A stretch of 64,000 nucleotides of DNA from Rhizobium sp. BK399. Lineage in GTDB: Bacteria > Pseudomonadota > Alphaproteobacteria > Rhizobiales > Rhizobiaceae. Made by a program: the position numbers and the translations under genes. Of this stretch, positions 56,869 through 63,800 are shown piece by piece (within the stretch, counting starts at the first letter, position 1; the number at the start of each line of letters is the position of its first letter). Under the pieces are notes generated by a model. That model was not told the DNA's origin, made no database searches, and saw nothing but the letters and a program-made list of their open reading frames with translations. The DNA lies in the NCBI RefSeq assembly GCF_014194695.1, contig NZ_JACIAH010000007.1, positions 248,001 to 312,000 on the forward strand. Direction: 5' to 3'.

Positions 56869-57921
56869 CTAGACGAGCGGCGGGTACAGGTGCTCGGTCC
56901 CGCGATAATCCGAAACCGAATAGCAGCCCTCGCCCATCGCTCTGATCGACTGTTCAGCGATCACGGCTTTGCCATGGCCACCAGGTATGTCGAGTATATA
57001 GGTGGGCTGGCAGAGACCAGAAATCCGACCGCGCAGAGCCGCGACGATCCTCTGTCCCTCTTCGATCGTGAGCCGAAAATGGCTCGTCCCGGGAGCCAGA
57101 TCAGGATGGTGCAGATAATAGGGCTTTACGCGCGTCTCGACGAAAGCCTTCATCAGTTCCGTGAGCACGGCCGGATCGTCATTGACGCCCTTGAGCAGCA
57201 CCGACTGGCTGACCATGACCACCCCGGCATCAATTAGGCGCGCACATGCCGCTCTTGCCTCGTCTGTCAGTTCGCGCGGATGATTGGCATGCAAAGCCAC
57301 ATAAACGCTCTTGCCACTCGCCCTCAGCGCCGCAATCAGGGCCGCATCGATCTTTGATGGATCGACAACAGGAACGCGCGTGTGGAACCGCACGATCTTC
57401 ACGTGATCGATCAATGCCAGTTCGCGAAGGATCTCTTCGAGCCGTCGCGGGGAGAGGATTAACGGATCGCCGCCCGTCAGGATCACTTCCCAGATTTCGT
57501 GGTGGTCGCGAATATAGGCAAAAGCTGCCGACATTGCCTCGGAGTCCAATGTCCCCAAGCCTTGTGGACCAACCATTTCGCGTCGAAAACAGAACCGGCA
57601 GTAGACCGGGCACACATGCACGGCTTTCAACAGCACGCGATCCGGATAGCGATGAACGATGCCTTGTACGGGACTATGGGCCTCGTCGCCGATCGGATCC
57701 GCACGCTCTTCAGGCGCAACGATCAGCTCGGCCGCGTCAGGAACGAACTGCCGGGCAATCGGGTCGGCGTCATTCGCAGGATCAACCAGACCCACGACCG
57801 TCGGCGTCAATGCAATGGCGTACCGTGCGGCGACATCCGCCAAAGCGTCGCGGTCTCTTTCGCCGAGCAACCCGGCGCGTTCGAGACCCTCGACGGTCTT
57901 GATGGCTGTGATGCTGTTCAT
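56869..57921 (-). CDS. epmB: EF-P beta-lysylation enzyme EpmB (lysine 2,3-aminomutase-like)
   Basis: EpmB, a radical-SAM/PLP enzyme, turns (S)-alpha-lysine into (R)-beta-lysine for elongation factor P. The 350-residue protein has CPVYCRFCFRRE (CxxxCxxC cluster motif), ILTGGDPLIL, and the PLP Lys in GGHGKAVI. ATG 57921 overlaps the epmA stop by 4 bases, so the two are translationally coupled. efp is divergent, 1.2 kb away. Confidence 0.93.
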   Translation of the reverse strand: MNSITAIKTVEGLERAGLLGERDRDALADVAARYAIALTPTVVGLVDPANDADPIARQFVPDAAELIVAPEERADPIGDEAHSPVQGIVHRYPDRVLLKAVHVCPVYCRFCFRREMVGPQGLGTLDSEAMSAAFAYIRDHHEIWEVILTGGDPLILSPRRLEEILRELALIDHVKIVRFHTRVPVVDPSKIDAALIAALRASGKSVYVALHANHPRELTDEARAACARLIDAGVVMVSQSVLLKGVNDDPAVLTELMKAFVETRVKPYYLHHPDLAPGTSHFRLTIEEGQRIVAALRGRISGLCQPTYILDIPGGHGKAVIAEQSIRAMGEGCYSVSDYRGTEHLYPPLV

Positions 57922-58985
57922 GTGCCGTACTCCGCGACCGGCGCCCATAGCACCTGATCGATCCGTGACGCCCCGGTTGCCAGCATCACCAGCCGATCGA
58001 AGCCGAGCGCGATGCCACTTGCCTCCGGCATTTTGGCGAGGGCCTCCAAGAAATCCTCGTCGAGCGGATAGCGTTCGCCGTAGATGCGAGCTTTCTCGGC
58101 CATCTCGGTCTCGAAGCGGCGGCGCTGTTCTGCCGCATTGGTGAGCTCCCCAAAACCGTTCGCGAGCTCAACGCCGCAGGCGTAGACCTCGAAACGTTCG
58201 GCAACCCGGGGATCGCTCGCGGAAGGACGCGCCAGCGCAGCTTCCGATACTGGATACCCGTCCAGAATCGTGACGCGGCCAAAGCCTAGATGCGGTTCCA
58301 CCTTTTCGACCAGCACGCGGCTGAACAAATCCGCCCAGCCGTCATCTTCGGCAACGCGCATGCCGGTCCGCTTTACCTGGTCCGCGAGATGCGCCCGATC
58401 CGTGGCGCCGTCGGTCGAAACGGACGCCAGCAGATCTATGCCAGCGTAGCGGTCGAAGGCTGCGGCAACGCTTAGCCGGTTCGGCCCCGCGAACGGATCG
58501 CACTCGCTCCCGCGATAGGTGAGCCGCGTCGTCTTCATGGTTTCTGCAGCAAGGGCCAGAATGCGAACGCAATCCATCATCAGACTCTCATAGCTTTCGC
58601 CCACGCGATACCATTCAAGCATGGTGAATTCCGGATGATGCAACGGACCGCGCTCGCGGTTGCGATAAACGTGAGCGAAGCAGGCGATGCGCTGTTCTCC
58701 GGCCGAAAGCAGTTTCTTGCAGGCAAATTCAGGCGAAGTGTGCAGATATAGCGGCGCTGCTGTCTGGCCGTCAGTCGTCAGCGCTTTGGTGGCAAAGGCG
58801 TGCAGATGCGCCTCGTTGCCTGGCGACACTTGCAGCGTGGCAGTGTCGACCTCCAGAAAGTCCTCGCTTAGGAAGTAGCCGCGTAGGGCCGTCTGGATCG
58901 CATTCCGCCCGAGCAGAAACGGGCGGCGGTCCGCATGCACGCTCGGCGTCCACCACGGCGATACTTTGGCGATCGAGGGTTTCAT
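57918..58985 (-). CDS. epmA: EF-P--(R)-beta-lysine ligase EpmA (GenX/PoxA)
   Basis: EpmA is a LysRS paralogue without an anticodon-binding domain; it attaches beta-lysine to EF-P. The 355-residue protein has motif 1 region [18 protein letters not shown], motif 2 [23 protein letters not shown] and motif 3 [15 protein letters not shown] 58985 has AGGA 8 bases upstream; ATG 58991 is too close to it. It diverges from efp over 151 bases and is coupled to epmB. Confidence 0.94.
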
Positions 58986-59136
58986 TGACATCGTCCTGAC
59001 CGGTCTATCCAACGCTGGGGCTGGCTATTTGCCGGATTTTAGGTTAGTTGCGCCCCCAAAGAACAATCAGTTGCGTCTCGGAGGCCGTATCGACAGTCCT
59101 CTACGACGCCAAAAGCCGAGTTACAAGGAAGTCTTA

Positions 59137-59706
59137 ATGGTCAAGGTCATCGCCTCTTCCGTCCGCAAGGGCAACGTTCTCGACGTAGATGGCAAACTCT
59201 ACGTCGTTCTGACTGCCCAGAACTTTCATCCGGGCAAGGGCACGCCGGTCACCCAGGTTGACATGCGTCGTATCGTCGACGGCGTAAAGGTTTCCGAACG
59301 CTGGCGTACGACCGAACAGGTCGAGCGCGCCTTCGTCGAAGACGTGAACTTCCAGTATCTTTACGAGGACGGCGAGGGGTTCCACTTCATGAACCCGGCG
59401 ACCTATGACCAGGTGGTCGTGAACGATGAAACGATGGGCGATCAGAAGGCCTACCTGCAGGAAGGCATGACCTGCATCCTGTCGATCCATGAAGGTGTTC
59501 CGCTAGCCCTCGAGCTGCCGCGCCACGTCATTCTCGAAATCACCGAAACCGAACCGGTTGTGAAGGGCCAGACGGCGTCGTCTTCCTACAAACCGGCCAT
59601 GCTTTCGAATGGCATCCGCACCTTGGTACCTCCGCATATTGACGCCGGCACGCGCGTCGTTATTGCAACGGAAGACAATTCCTACGTCGAACGCGCCAAG
59701 AATTGA
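59137..59706 (+). CDS. efp: Translation elongation factor P
   Basis: EF-P (189 residues) relieves ribosomes stalled at poly-proline. The loop bearing the modified Lys34 reads FHPGKGTP, the form used with EpmAB. The three OB/KOW-type domains end with [27 protein letters not shown] 6 bases before ATG 59137. A strong terminator follows. Confidence 0.98.
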
Positions 59707-59728
59707 TCGATCGACAGCCGTGAATCAG

Positions 59729-59760
59729 AGGTCGCGTTTGCAGCGCGGCCTTTTTCTTTC
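59729..59760 (+). terminator. Rho-independent terminator after efp
   Basis: GGTCGCG (59730-59736) and CGCGGCC (59744-59750) form a 7-bp stem with one G-U pair, followed by TTTTTCTTTC. Confidence 0.85.
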
Positions 59761-59772
59761 TTACGGCTTTCG

Positions 59773-59803
59773 CCAAATAAAAAAGCGCCGGTCTAGCCGG
59801 CGC
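59773..59803 (-). terminator. Rho-independent terminator after the glycine-zipper lipoprotein gene
   Basis: On the minus strand CCGGCGC-type arms (59785-59791 and 59797-59803) form a perfect 7-bp GC stem followed by TTTTTTATTTGG. Confidence 0.85.
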
Positions 59804-59841
59804 CTTGAACTTTCAAATCATGCCCAGCAGGGCAGCCCGGC

Positions 59842-60105
59842 CTAGTAGCGCGGGCAACGGGCCTCGTAGCGACGGCCATACCGGTCTCTGTAGACGCAGT
59901 AACCGCGACGCTCAACGGACTGGCCGATCAATGCGCCAGCAAGACCGCCGGCTACGGCACCAATTGCTGCCCCACCCCAGCTGTGGCTTACAGCACCGCC
60001 AATAATGGCGCCGCTGCCTGCACCAATCGCGGTTCCCTGTTCCGTCGCCGTACAGGACGCAAGCGCGCCAACCAGTGCACCAATAAGCACAATCTTTTTC
60101 ATCAT
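59842..60105 (-). CDS. Small glycine-zipper lipoprotein
   Basis: The 87-residue protein has a lipoprotein signal with lipobox LASC (Cys18). The mature part is a glycine-zipper helix pair (TAIGAGSGAIIGG, GGAAIGAVAGGLAGALIG) and ends in a basic, Tyr/Arg-rich tail with two Cys (YCVYRDRYGRRYEARC). Such proteins insert into the outer membrane and are often stress-induced. GGGAG 7 bases before ATG 60105. It follows the DUF3309 gene by 27 bases and has its own terminator. Confidence 0.8.
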   Translation of the reverse strand: MMKKIVLIGALVGALASCTATEQGTAIGAGSGAIIGGAVSHSWGGAAIGAVAGGLAGALIGQSVERRGYCVYRDRYGRRYEARCPRY

Positions 60106-60132
60106 GACATATCTCCCAGATTTTTCCGTCGC

Positions 60133-60288
60133 TTAGATACGACCGAGCAACACAAGAATAATAATAATCACGAGAACTAGCCCTAAACCTCCGGAAGGTC
60201 CATAGCCCCAGCCGCGGCTGTAACCCCAATTTGGTAGAGCTCCGATCAAAAGCAGAATAAGGATAATGAGAAGTATGGTTCCAAGCAT
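60133..60288 (-). CDS. DUF3309 small membrane protein (51 aa)
   Basis: This short gene encodes MLGTILLIILILLLIGALP, then WGYSRGWGYGPSGGLGL and a second hydrophobic helix ending in LVLLGRI. The layout (two membrane helices around an aromatic YSRGWGYGPSG loop) is diagnostic of DUF3309, widespread in alphaproteobacteria. Function is unknown; homologues tend to be linked to general stress genes. It precedes the glycine-zipper lipoprotein gene and probably shares its transcript. Confidence 0.85.
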   Translation of the reverse strand: MLGTILLIILILLLIGALPNWGYSRGWGYGPSGGLGLVLVIIIILVLLGRI

Positions 60289-60803
60289 GGTTCAAGTCCT
60301 CGACGTCATTACACCAGGGAATGGACCAGAAACACGCATCACCGATTTTTGTTCCGCGTGTATCAAATGTTTAGCTTTGGCGGCAAAATCATACGAACCA
60401 CATCGTTTTCTGCCGCTCCATGGAATGCAAGTAACATCGCGAAAAGGCTCCGGCCGAAATTCGCCTTAAGATTTTCGACAAAGGCAGTTGACAGAATGGA
60501 TGCAAATCGCGCTGCACGCATGACGTGAATTTTCCGATTCAGCATCTTGTGGGAAAAAGCGATTCAAAATCAATACTTAGCCGTGAACAAACACTGAATC
60601 AGCCGGAGTCAGCGATTCGTCTCCGATTCGTTCTCAAGCTGTTCCGAATCGGAAAACGAGCAATCTGCAAGCTATTCGCGCAACAGAAACTGCGGAGGAA
60701 ATTCAAATCAGCCCTTGCCTTTGCGACAACGGCTGTCCATGTGTTGTCTGCTTCGGAGAGGAGCTGACTTGATCTGGGGCTCCCCGGCCTCATCTGCAGG
60801 ACC
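60289..60803. other. 515-base gene-free region with a GANTC cluster and a stress-type promoter
   Basis: No convincing gene is seen. A possible sigma-EcfG promoter for the DUF3309 operon lies at 60331-60355. Seven GANTC sites lie within 60536-60650 (at 60536, 60561, 60596, 60606, 60614, 60624 and 60646). The remainder must hold the promoter of the helicase gene. Confidence 0.6.
60331..60355 (-). promoter_or_regulatory. Candidate sigma-EcfG (general stress) promoter
   Basis: On the minus strand GGAAC (60351-60355) is followed after 16 bases by TGTT (60331-60334). The alphaproteobacterial general-stress consensus is GGAAC-N16/17-CGTT, so one base differs. It lies 43 bases upstream of the DUF3309 start. 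Confidence 0.45.
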
Positions 60804-63800
60804 ATGACACTGACATCGCAGCCGATGATACTGAGTGGACGCGGGGTAACCGCGGTGCTCGGGCCAACCAATACCGGCAAAACGCATTATGCCATTGAGC
60901 GCATGGTTGCACATGGCACCGGCGTGATCGGCCTGCCGCTGCGACTGCTGGCGCGTGAGGTTTACACGCGCGTCGCCGAAAAGGTCGGAGTGCAGAATGT
61001 TGCACTGGTAACGGGCGAGGAGAAGATATCGCCTCCCAATGCCCGCTTTTCGGTCTGCACGGTCGAGGCAATGCCACGCGAGACCAAGGCAGCGTTCGTC
61101 GCCATTGATGAAGTTCAGCTCGCTGGCGATCTGGAGCGGGGGCATATCTTCACGGATCGTATTCTGCATTTGCGCGGTCGCGACGAAACGCTGCTGCTTG
61201 GCGCCGGTACGATGCGACCGATCTTGCAGCAACTTCTCCCTGGGATCACGGTGGTTGAGCGACCCAGGCTTTCCCACCTTTTCTACGCTGGACAGAAGAA
61301 GATCACGCGCCTGCCGCAGCGCTCGGCAATCGTCGCCTTCTCGGCGGATGAAGTCTACGCGATCGCCGAATTGATCCGCAGACAGCGCGGCGGAGCAGCC
61401 GTCGTACTTGGCGCCCTTAGCCCGCGCACGCGCAATGCGCAGGTAGCGCTTTATCAGGCTGGAGACGTCGAGTATCTGGTCGCGACCGATGCGATCGGCA
61501 TGGGGCTCAATCTCGACGTCGACCACGTCGCCTTTGCTCAAGATCGCAAATTCGACGGCTATCAGTTCCGCAACCTGAACCCCGCCGAACTCGGGCAGAT
61601 TGCAGGCCGTGCCGGCAGGCACGTTCGCGACGGGACGTTTGGCGTCACAGGCCAGGTCGATCCCTTTGACGAGGAGCTGGTCGAACGCATCGAAGGCCAT
61701 GAGTTCGACAATGTGAAAGTGCTGCAATGGCGCACGAAGAACCTCGATTTCGCTTCCATTCACGCGCTACGCACAAGCCTTGAGACCGGACCCACTGTTC
61801 CCGGCCTGACGCGCGCCTTGCCTGCGGTCGACCAGCAGGCGCTGGAACACCTGTCGCGCTATCCTGAAATCATCGACCTTGCGACCAATCCATCGCGCGT
61901 CGAGAAGCTGTGGGAGGCCTGCGCGCTTCCGGACTACCGGCGCATTGCGCCGGCGCAACATGCCGATCTGATCTCGACCCTCTTTTCCGATCTCGTTCGC
62001 TATGGCACGGTAAACGAGGACTTCCTCGCCGAGCAGGTCCATCGCGCGGACCGAACAGACGGCGAGATTGACACGCTTTCGGCGCGAATCGCGCAGATAA
62101 GGACTTGGACCTATGTGTCGAATCGGCCCAATTGGCTTGCCGATCCGACACACTGGCAGGAAAAGACGCGGGAAATCGAAGATCGATTGTCCGATGCGTT
62201 ACATGAAAGGTTGACGAAACGCTTTGTTGATCGCAGGACATCTGTGCTCATGAAGCGCCTGAGAGAGAATGCGATGCTGGAAGCTGAAATCAGTGTAAAT
62301 GGCGATGTCTTCGTTGAAGGACATCATGTAGGGCAGTTGTCGGGATTCCGGTTCACGCCCATTTCGGGAGCGGAAGGGCCGGACGCCAAGGCTGTTCAGT
62401 CTGCTTCGCAAAAGGCGCTCGCTTTGGAATTCGAGGCACGTGCTGCGCGCCTCCATGCGGCCGGCAACGGCGATCTCGCGATCAGCTCCGACGGCGCGAT
62501 CCGTTGGTTGGGCGATCCGGTAGCGCGCCTTGCGGGCAGTGATCATGTGATGCGCCCGCGCGTCATCCTGCTCGCCGACGAGCAGCTGACCGGCAATGCC
62601 CGCGACCACGTGGCAGCCCGTATCGAGCGCTTCGTCAATCATCACATCAGCACGGTTCTGAAGCCGCTCGACGATCTGTCGCGTGCCGAAGACCTGCAGG
62701 GCCTGGCAAAGGGTCTGGCGTTCCAGCTCGTCGAGAATCTCGGCGTCCTGTTCCGACGCGACGTGACCGAAGAGGTGAAGTCACTGGATCAGGATGCGCG
62801 CGCCTCGATGCGCCGCTATGGCGTCCGGTTCGGCGCCTATCACATCTTCGTCCCTGCCCTTCTGAAGCCTGCTCCAGCCGAGCTCATCACGCTTCTCTGG
62901 GCGCTAAAGAACGACGGTCTCGACAAGCCGGGCTACGGCGATCTCATTCCCGTTCTGGCTGCAGGCCGCACGTCGGTGGTGACAGATCCAGCTTTCGAGC
63001 GCACCTTCTACAAGCTGGCCGGCTTCCGATTCCTTGGCAAACGCGCAGTTCGCATTGACATCCTGGAGCGCCTTGCGGATATCATCCGCCCGTTGCTTCA
63101 GTGGAAGCCTGGCCAGGCCAACCGTCCTGAAGGTGCATATGACGGCCGTCGCTTCACGACAACGACCGCCATGCTTTCGATCCTCGGTGCAACGCTCGAG
63201 GACATGGAAGAGATCCTGAAGGGGCTCGGCTATCGCGCCGATGCCGTAAAGGCAGAGGAGGCAGCAGCTCATCTGTCGGTTCAGGACGCCTCGACAGCGC
63301 CGACGGCCGAGACCGCAACCGAAGAGAGCGCGGAGAAGGCCGATCACGACGATGCCGACAGCGCGTCGGAGGAGCCTGCCTCGGAGGCTCCCACCGTTGA
63401 GGTCGCGGCTGAAGAACAGCCGGTTGCCGCAACGTCGGAAGAAGCAGAGGAACCGAAGCCGGTTCTTCTTTGGCGCCTCGGTGGCCGTACGGACAATCAG
63501 CGTCAGGCCCGCAGCCCGGGTGGCGAACGCCGCGGCGGCAACAATCGCGGCCAAGATCGCGGAAATGGCCAGCGTCGCCAAGGTGGTGAAGGTGGCGAGG
63601 GCCGTGATGGCAACCGCCAGCATCGCGGCAAGGATGGCGGTAAGCCGCAACAGGGACGGGGCGATCGTAACGAACAGCGCGGCGACCGTCAGGACCGCGG
63701 CGATCGCAAGGACCGCAACAACAACCGCGGCGGCCCGCAGCCGTTGCGCTTCGAGGCAAAGCCCCCACGCAAGGAAAAGCCGATCGATCCGGATTCTCCC

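Follow-up and report, generated by a model that had tools for sequence, protein, structure and literature searches.

A cluster of GANTC sites upstream of a SUV3-like helicase gene in Rhizobium and the conserved element that it overlies

Overview

A tight group of seven GANTC sites precedes a SUV3-like helicase gene in the window, which is the whole stretch of 64,000 nucleotides that was analysed. With roughly even confidence, the cluster is read here as the form that an old, composite cis-regulatory DNA element of the helicase gene takes in the Rhizobium lineage. The position of the element, its direction, its rigid spacing, its conservation and its tandem copies are all seen in the alignments, and most likely they mark out a composite region that controls the helicase gene. 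As far as the alignments go, the conserved unit is a rigid element that carries YGATTCG between LexA-like flanks rather than a set of seven GANTC sites, and the extra GANTC sites around the core are specific to the Rhizobium lineage. Through the element the helicase gene may be linked with the cell cycle and perhaps also with DNA damage. The open-licence literature that was searched yielded no published description of it. The S. meliloti helicase gene is presumably the one with the locus tag SMc03876. The features of the locus are collected in Table 1.

Table 1. Features of the helicase upstream region, in window coordinates
Feature	Position	Strand	Basis or remark
DUF3309 small protein gene, adjoins the gap	60133..60288	-	family search
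Upstream conserved box CGATTCAGCATCTTG, holds GANTC site 1	60535..60549	+	alignment
GANTC cluster, seven sites	60536..60650	.	site listing and density count
GANTC site 2, present in part of the genus	60561..60565	.	genus site strings and alignment
Core element, ~90 bp	60568..60656	+	model R1, 80.9 bits, E 1.8e-22
Palindrome-like box, consensus CNANATNTNG	60571..60580	.	5/6 fixed positions matched here
GAAC-N7-GAAT, inverted LexA-like left half-sites	60585..60599	-	overlaps GANTC site 3 (60596-60600)
GAGTC, GANTC site 4	60606..60610	.	copy alignment
CGATTCG (YGATTCG), GANTC site 5, the element's most constant site	60613..60619	+	copy alignment
Second CGATTCG, 11 bp on, GANTC site 6	60624..60630	+	kept in the family, mostly not outside
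GTTC-N7-GTTC, LexA-box match	60630..60644	+	copy alignment
GAATC, GANTC site 7, beyond the constant core	60646..60650	.	site listing and alignment
CTTGCC-N17-CCATGTG, candidate helicase promoter	60714..60743	+	genus-alignment conservation, by eye
SUV3-like helicase gene, 1012 aa	60804..63842	+	domains DEXQc_Suv3, Helicase_C

A simple sigma-70 consensus scan found no promoter around the element or at 60714-60743. The rough family consensus of the upstream box CGATTCAGCATCTTG is gAttCa..AT.T.Gt. A small ORF at 60528-60764 has no Pfam match and was for that reason rejected as a coding sequence. On its other side the gap is adjoined by the DUF3309 gene and a glycine-zipper gene (59842-60105). Farther upstream, the minus strand at 59768-59840 matches the mmgR/suhB sRNA family below the gathering score (26.5 bits against 41) just after a gene that reads as elongation factor P, and the genes grouped together at 56869-59706 read by eye as EpmB, EpmA and EF-P.

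The GANTC cluster

The sites begin at 60536, 60561, 60596, 60606, 60614, 60625 and 60646 and span 115 bp. The preliminary description had listed the same seven, with six positions exact and the sixth given as 60624, and it had correctly placed them in a 515-base gap before the helicase, as DUF3309 starts at 60288 on the minus strand and the helicase gene at 60804. It had also assumed about one GANTC per 256 bases, a figure that does not hold here, the actual local rate being 1 per ~590 bp. The 64-kb window contains 109 GANTC sites and dinucleotide shuffles predict 352 (sd 17), which is a depletion of about three-fold. This is in line with the under-representation of GANTC in alphaproteobacterial genomes, with relative enrichment between genes, that is described in an excerpt of PMC3973325.

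The density of the cluster was ranked along two contigs of the genome, a check that had been proposed for the whole genome. Contig C7 (348,222 bp), which contains the window, has 542 GANTC sites, and the runner-up 115-bp stretch, this cluster aside, holds 3; at the C7 rate the Poisson chance of at least 7 sites in a given 115 bp is 1e-9. The first 400,000 positions of another contig (C1:1-400000) have 684 sites and a densest 115-bp stretch of 4. No 115-bp rival with more than 4 sites is thus present in 748 kb of the 6.43 Mb, and the objection that such clusters are common by chance fails. Chance accumulation of GANTC, to which we assign a probability close to nil, is ruled out for the 748 kb examined, where the cluster is unique; the conserved spacing of the sites also argues against it.

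This spacing was followed in 30 genus loci, which are the best 30 matches and include the window's own locus. The site string 25-35-10-8-11-21 is contained in 19/30 of them and lacks one site in 1/30, and the remaining 10/30 show another, denser arrangement with 13-22 sites in the last 760 bp, in which the spacings 8, 11, 22 and 10 recur. In the genus alignment the spacings trace back to a module that is repeated, and not just to GANTC.

The conserved element

To define the module, 52 copies (of 68 picked by regular expression) were aligned and turned into a sequence-only profile, R1. Alignment A2 holds the best 150 of 180 R1 matches over 84 loci; 20 of its 150 rows, from 9 of 14 extra loci, were left uncounted, and 130 copies were counted. 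A2 omits weak distal copies, so that distal conservation is somewhat overstated, and cells with a gap were left out of the single counts, hence the denominators 61, 62 and 55. R1 weights GATTCG, and counts on copies that the model found are therefore partly ascertained. The 40 family loci were chosen from 140 genomes with a match, while 11 of 151 genomes had none.

Among the best 150 of the 180 matches, the element lies upstream of the SUV3-like helicase in 64 of 70 SUV3-anchored genus and family loci and is lacking in 6. The 64 loci carry one copy (27 loci), two (12), three (21) or four (4), which means tandem copies in 37 of them. Copies within a locus are always on the same strand, that of the gene, and 59 of the 66 intervals between tandem copies measure 198-296 bp; five copies, 279-285 bp apart, are present in one family member (G105). 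The window's own locus and the close relatives L003-L005, which align with it through DUF3309, have a single copy in the 1.5 kb examined, and other relatives have additional copies upstream of the helicase. The core element is the sole strong R1 copy in this genome, the three other matches having E values of at least 0.14. In 15 chosen genomes R1 matches of at least 45 bits occur at one locus, upstream of the helicase, in 1-4 copies, the exceptions being one stray copy in each of two genomes (G120, G116), at distances of 1.6 kb and 15 kb.

The first part of the consensus of the 141 distinct copies (best 150 of 180 matches) reads C-n-A-n-A-T-n-T-n-G-c-n-G-t-GAACAAA-n4-GAA, and 10 bp further it reads gTCagcGATTCGTCgccGATTCGTTCc-n5-tGtTCc and often GTTAA. 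The order of the core is CNANATNTNG, GAAC-N7-GAA, (GAGTC), YGATTCG-N4-YGATTCG-TTC, N7 and GTTC, and its spacing is rigid. In the same best 150 of 180 matches, the first central GATTC is kept in 63/64 gene-proximal and 66/66 distal copies (129/130 in total), and the second in 56/64 and 62/66 (118/130). The two central sites retain GANTC in 247 of 260 cases, and in 260/260 they have a pyrimidine (C or T) on the left and G on the right. The outer sites behave differently: site 3, the left GAATC, is a GANTC in 40/64 proximal and 5/66 distal copies, and site 4, GAGTC, in 54/61 and 12/66. These site-by-site counts indicate that the module itself keeps one or two sites, and that a high number of GANTC sites is a trait of the gene-proximal copy and of the Rhizobium lineage. 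A lack of conservation had been named as an observation that would speak against the proposed role of the cluster; the core is conserved, whereas the density of sites itself is not.

Distribution of the element

A sample of 101 genomes from the order, among them the window's own, yields R1 matches in 75, and a sample of 94 from other orders of the class yields them in 8. In 7 of these 8 class-level matches outside the order the helicase lies within ~620 bp downstream, and for the eighth (L322) it was not found. Among 35 chosen genomes, many of them picked for an element-less helicase locus or for distance, 20 have an R1 match. Outside the family 54 model-found copies remain after pattern-selected loci and duplicates are removed from 76 rows, two of them being opposite-strand overlaps. 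YGATTCG is present in 52 of these copies, a second GANTC 11 bp on in 9, and GTTC 16 bp downstream of the first site in 47.

Because R1 itself favours GATTCG, a gene-anchored test was made on 20 of 24 non-genus genomes; L334 has no anchor motif, so its end was used, and L335 is shortened by a contig end. In these 20 other families a plus-strand YGATTCG lies within 600 bp upstream of the gene in 14 and is missing in 6, and a minus-strand YGATTCG occurs in 3. The expected number is 0.05 per locus from the C7 rate, which comes from a genome that differs from theirs in composition. All 14 plus-strand sites are followed by [GT]TTC, and 12/14 are preceded by GAAC. A family-type pattern was also located in genome contigs: SUV3 lies within 600 bp downstream in 70 of the 80 stretches listed (of 119), and of the rest of these 80 another 8 end too early and 2 are ambiguous. 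By these counts the element accompanies the helicase gene in other families as well. The loci that lack the element, 6/70 (best 150 of 180 matches) and 6/20 in other families, count against the preferred explanation.

Some copies are found elsewhere. In G055 three weak copies (13-25 bits) lie between apparently convergent genes, as judged by eye, and in G058 two weak copies (16-17 bits) lie away from the helicase. One 46-bit copy in G116 precedes a small-protein gene, the neighbour again being judged by eye, and G209 has three grouped copies of 29-32 bits at C3:68585-69202. Further order-level copies are present in G264 (C1:1112986-1115223, C1:1140089-1140471 and C34:32913-32986) and in G276 (C50 and C4). 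The copies away from the helicase weaken a purely promoter-bound reading, and the extra copies in G264, G276 and G209 may reflect a use that is independent of the helicase.

LexA and the SOS response

The alphaproteobacterial LexA box is given as GTTC-N7-GTTC in part of PMC3323433. Such a box lies near the helicase gene, and lexA has a box in its own promoter; the lexA promoters carry a LexA-type box, GAAC-N7-GAAC, in 6/6 genomes. The element could therefore be essentially a LexA (SOS) operator array, in which GATTC is a degenerate GTTC half-site and GANTC is incidental. This overlap makes LexA a serious rival to the epigenetic reading, although we consider the array itself a doubtful account of the element. 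The proximal copies agree with it well: among the best 150 of 180 matches they have GTTC-N7-GTTC in 62/62, GAAC-N7-GAA in 60/64 and a mid-element TTC-N8-TTC in 61/64. Additionally, LexA boxes can easily overlap GANTC, as an excerpt of PMC7987155 notes, which would explain the conservation of the latter.

The distal copies in these best 150 of 180 matches do not follow this pattern. They keep GAAC-N7-GAA in 57/66 and the right box in 7 of 55 scorable copies, while all 66 have GATTC at the first site. Across proximal and distal copies this first site is GATTC and not GTTC in 129/130. Tandem copies therefore do not all keep the LexA box, and only the proximal copy is a candidate LexA operator. 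Two further results stand against an operator array, as C7 shows no excess of GTTC-N7-GTTC relative to other spacer lengths and a strict LexA box is found upstream of recA in only 1/6 genomes. Judged from the alignments, the LexA account covers the proximal right-hand box and does not cover the constancy of GATTC at the first site or the persistence of this site in distal copies without the box.

The recA upstream regions of five Rhizobiaceae (L284, L285, L286, L287 and L289), viewed by eye, feature CGATTCG/CGAATCG ~210-260 bp before the gene and GAACAAAN-N3-GTAC closer to it. The former is possibly a second GcrA-type site at an SOS gene.

GcrA and CcrM

GcrA-activated CcrM promoters feature the extended motif TGATTCG, or more broadly YGAKTCK, in the portion of PMC7987155 that deals with them. 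The extended form YGAKTCK is found upstream of the helicase gene, and the C or T before the central sites and the G after them fit this motif. The same portion reports that no extended motif preference was found for Brevundimonas GcrA, which counts against a GcrA reading. GcrA from S. meliloti and B. abortus binds the same Caulobacter targets and prefers methylated DNA (PMC3667746, in excerpt). An extract of PMC6813329 describes B. abortus GcrA ChIP peaks with a 4.4-4.7 fold GANTC enrichment that include ogt, lexA, uvrA and mutL, and states that, of the repair genes tested, ogt and mutL alone were altered by depletion of GcrA. The promoters of cell-cycle genes in Ensifer are without GANTC enrichment in the part of PMC8725594 that treats them, and this also counts against the reading.

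Both gcrA (PF07750) and a RAMA domain (PF18755) are present in this genome (G000), and both were found in 40/40 genomes, including all 21 that were selected as cases where no element, or no SUV3, had been detected next to the gene; two of the 21 (G058 and G060) have weak element copies elsewhere. The RAMA domain is taken here as the mark of CcrM. Co-loss of the element with gcrA or ccrM was looked for, and no loss of either protein occurs in the 40 genomes.

The preliminary description had proposed that the dense cluster places the helicase under epigenetic, cell-cycle-timed control or serves as a protein-loading site. One or two of the sites do look like conserved GcrA/CcrM sites in the alignments, and this part of the proposal stands; the dense clustering is not conserved, and that part falls. 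The helicase may be under cell-cycle-timed control, and the cluster may be a protein-loading site. Shielding of such sites by a protein, which leaves them persistently hypomethylated, is shown for MucR in an excerpt of PMC5172544.

At the centre of both GATTC sites there is almost always a T (130 copies, best 150 of 180 matches). A GANTC site as such would not call for this T, so what is conserved may be the site of another protein. A dedicated DNA-binding protein could read the whole 60-90 bp site, with neither GcrA nor LexA as the main reader. The fixed spacing, the dyad GAAC/GTTC half-sites, the CNANATNTNG palindrome and constant letters that extend beyond both known motifs are consistent with such a protein, as is the finding that the strong matches in the 15 chosen genomes lie at essentially one locus and form no scattered regulon. 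However, the parts of the element closely match two known alphaproteobacterial motifs and no candidate protein was identified, and we regard a dedicated reader as unlikely. Two published motifs were compared by eye and rejected as mismatches, namely the OmpR-family CenR motif TGA-N8-TGA (as shown in part of PMC9275681) and the inverted repeat of the S. meliloti srlA promoter, with OmpR-family-type repeats about one helical turn apart (as shown in part of PMC9561847).

Origin, RNA and nucleoprotein readings

The locus lies 123-159 kb from hemE in 7/7 chosen relatives with long chromosome contigs; the assembly that contains the window has hemE on a different contig. We take hemE to be the neighbour of the chromosomal origin (oriC). 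The cumulative GC skew keeps falling through the locus without a turning point. A chromosomal replication origin at the locus was rejected by this distance and by the skew.

An autonomous, tandemly amplified and methylation-clocked nucleoprotein site on the main chromosome near the origin is a different matter. It would act as a replication- or damage-sensing counting site whose signal is the hemimethylation of up to ~20 clustered GANTC sites right after initiation, and the link to the helicase would be secondary; we consider this improbable.

The element could also mark where a small RNA gene or a structured leader begins, a reading of very low probability. Some weak extra copies have no evident downstream protein gene (by eye; for example L150, between apparently convergent genes), GAAC and GTTC could pair, and the minus strand of 60500-60803 folds slightly better than shuffled sequences (z -2.0, 3/100 as good). 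The plus strand gives a z of only -0.6, however, and 59700-61000 has no Rfam match at the gathering score. The consensus fold reaches -2.2 kcal/mol with 0/12 pairs changed on both sides, and no terminator was found in the scan. A structured RNA or known sRNA was rejected, as there is no curated family match and no covarying pair and the only fold signal is the slight one on the minus strand.

Proposed mechanism and comparison with known systems

If the cluster is the Rhizobium form of a composite control element, CcrM would methylate its GANTC sites. The locus would become hemimethylated early in S phase because of its position near the origin, and GcrA, which would bind methylated GANTC better, would determine when the helicase is transcribed. 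LexA, or a protein of the same geometry, would act at the gene-proximal boxes, presumably as a repressor, and would add control by DNA damage.

Were this correct, an old cis-element would be common to alphaproteobacteria, one that keeps a cell-cycle methylation site at a set distance from SOS-type boxes in front of a helicase gene whose product carries the SUV3 RNA helicase domain. The locus would be ready-made for studies of GcrA-LexA interplay on one DNA segment, an overlap that is raised in an excerpt of PMC7987155. The reading would also predict that this helicase, which has received little study, acts at a set time or in connection with DNA damage, and the locus would provide a conserved test case for clustered GANTC as a graded sensor of hemimethylation.

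The repABC loci of chromids and megaplasmids, such as A. tumefaciens ori2, resemble this locus in having several GANTC sites in short intergenic DNA, and part of PMC11514494 ties these GANTC-rich loci to cell-cycle control. No repABC gene was recognised by eye among the nearby ORFs, and unlike repABC loci the element is on the main chromosome in relatives and lies before a helicase gene. In Caulobacter, 96 cell-cycle start sites have a GANTC within the 50 bp before them, and 11 of the 96 have more than one (PMC4287350, in excerpt). The promoters regulated by GcrA and CcrM (ctrA P1, mipZ and podJ in Caulobacter, ogt and mutL in Brucella) are alike in their intergenic YGATTCG and in lying upstream of a nucleic-acid metabolism gene. 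In contrast to them, the locus described here has seven sites in 115 bp, a rigid multi-part core, tandem copies and LexA-like flanks. Alphaproteobacterial LexA operators share GTTC-N7-GTTC with the gene-proximal copy, whereas here the box is coupled at fixed spacing to YGATTCG and is mostly lost in the distal copies.
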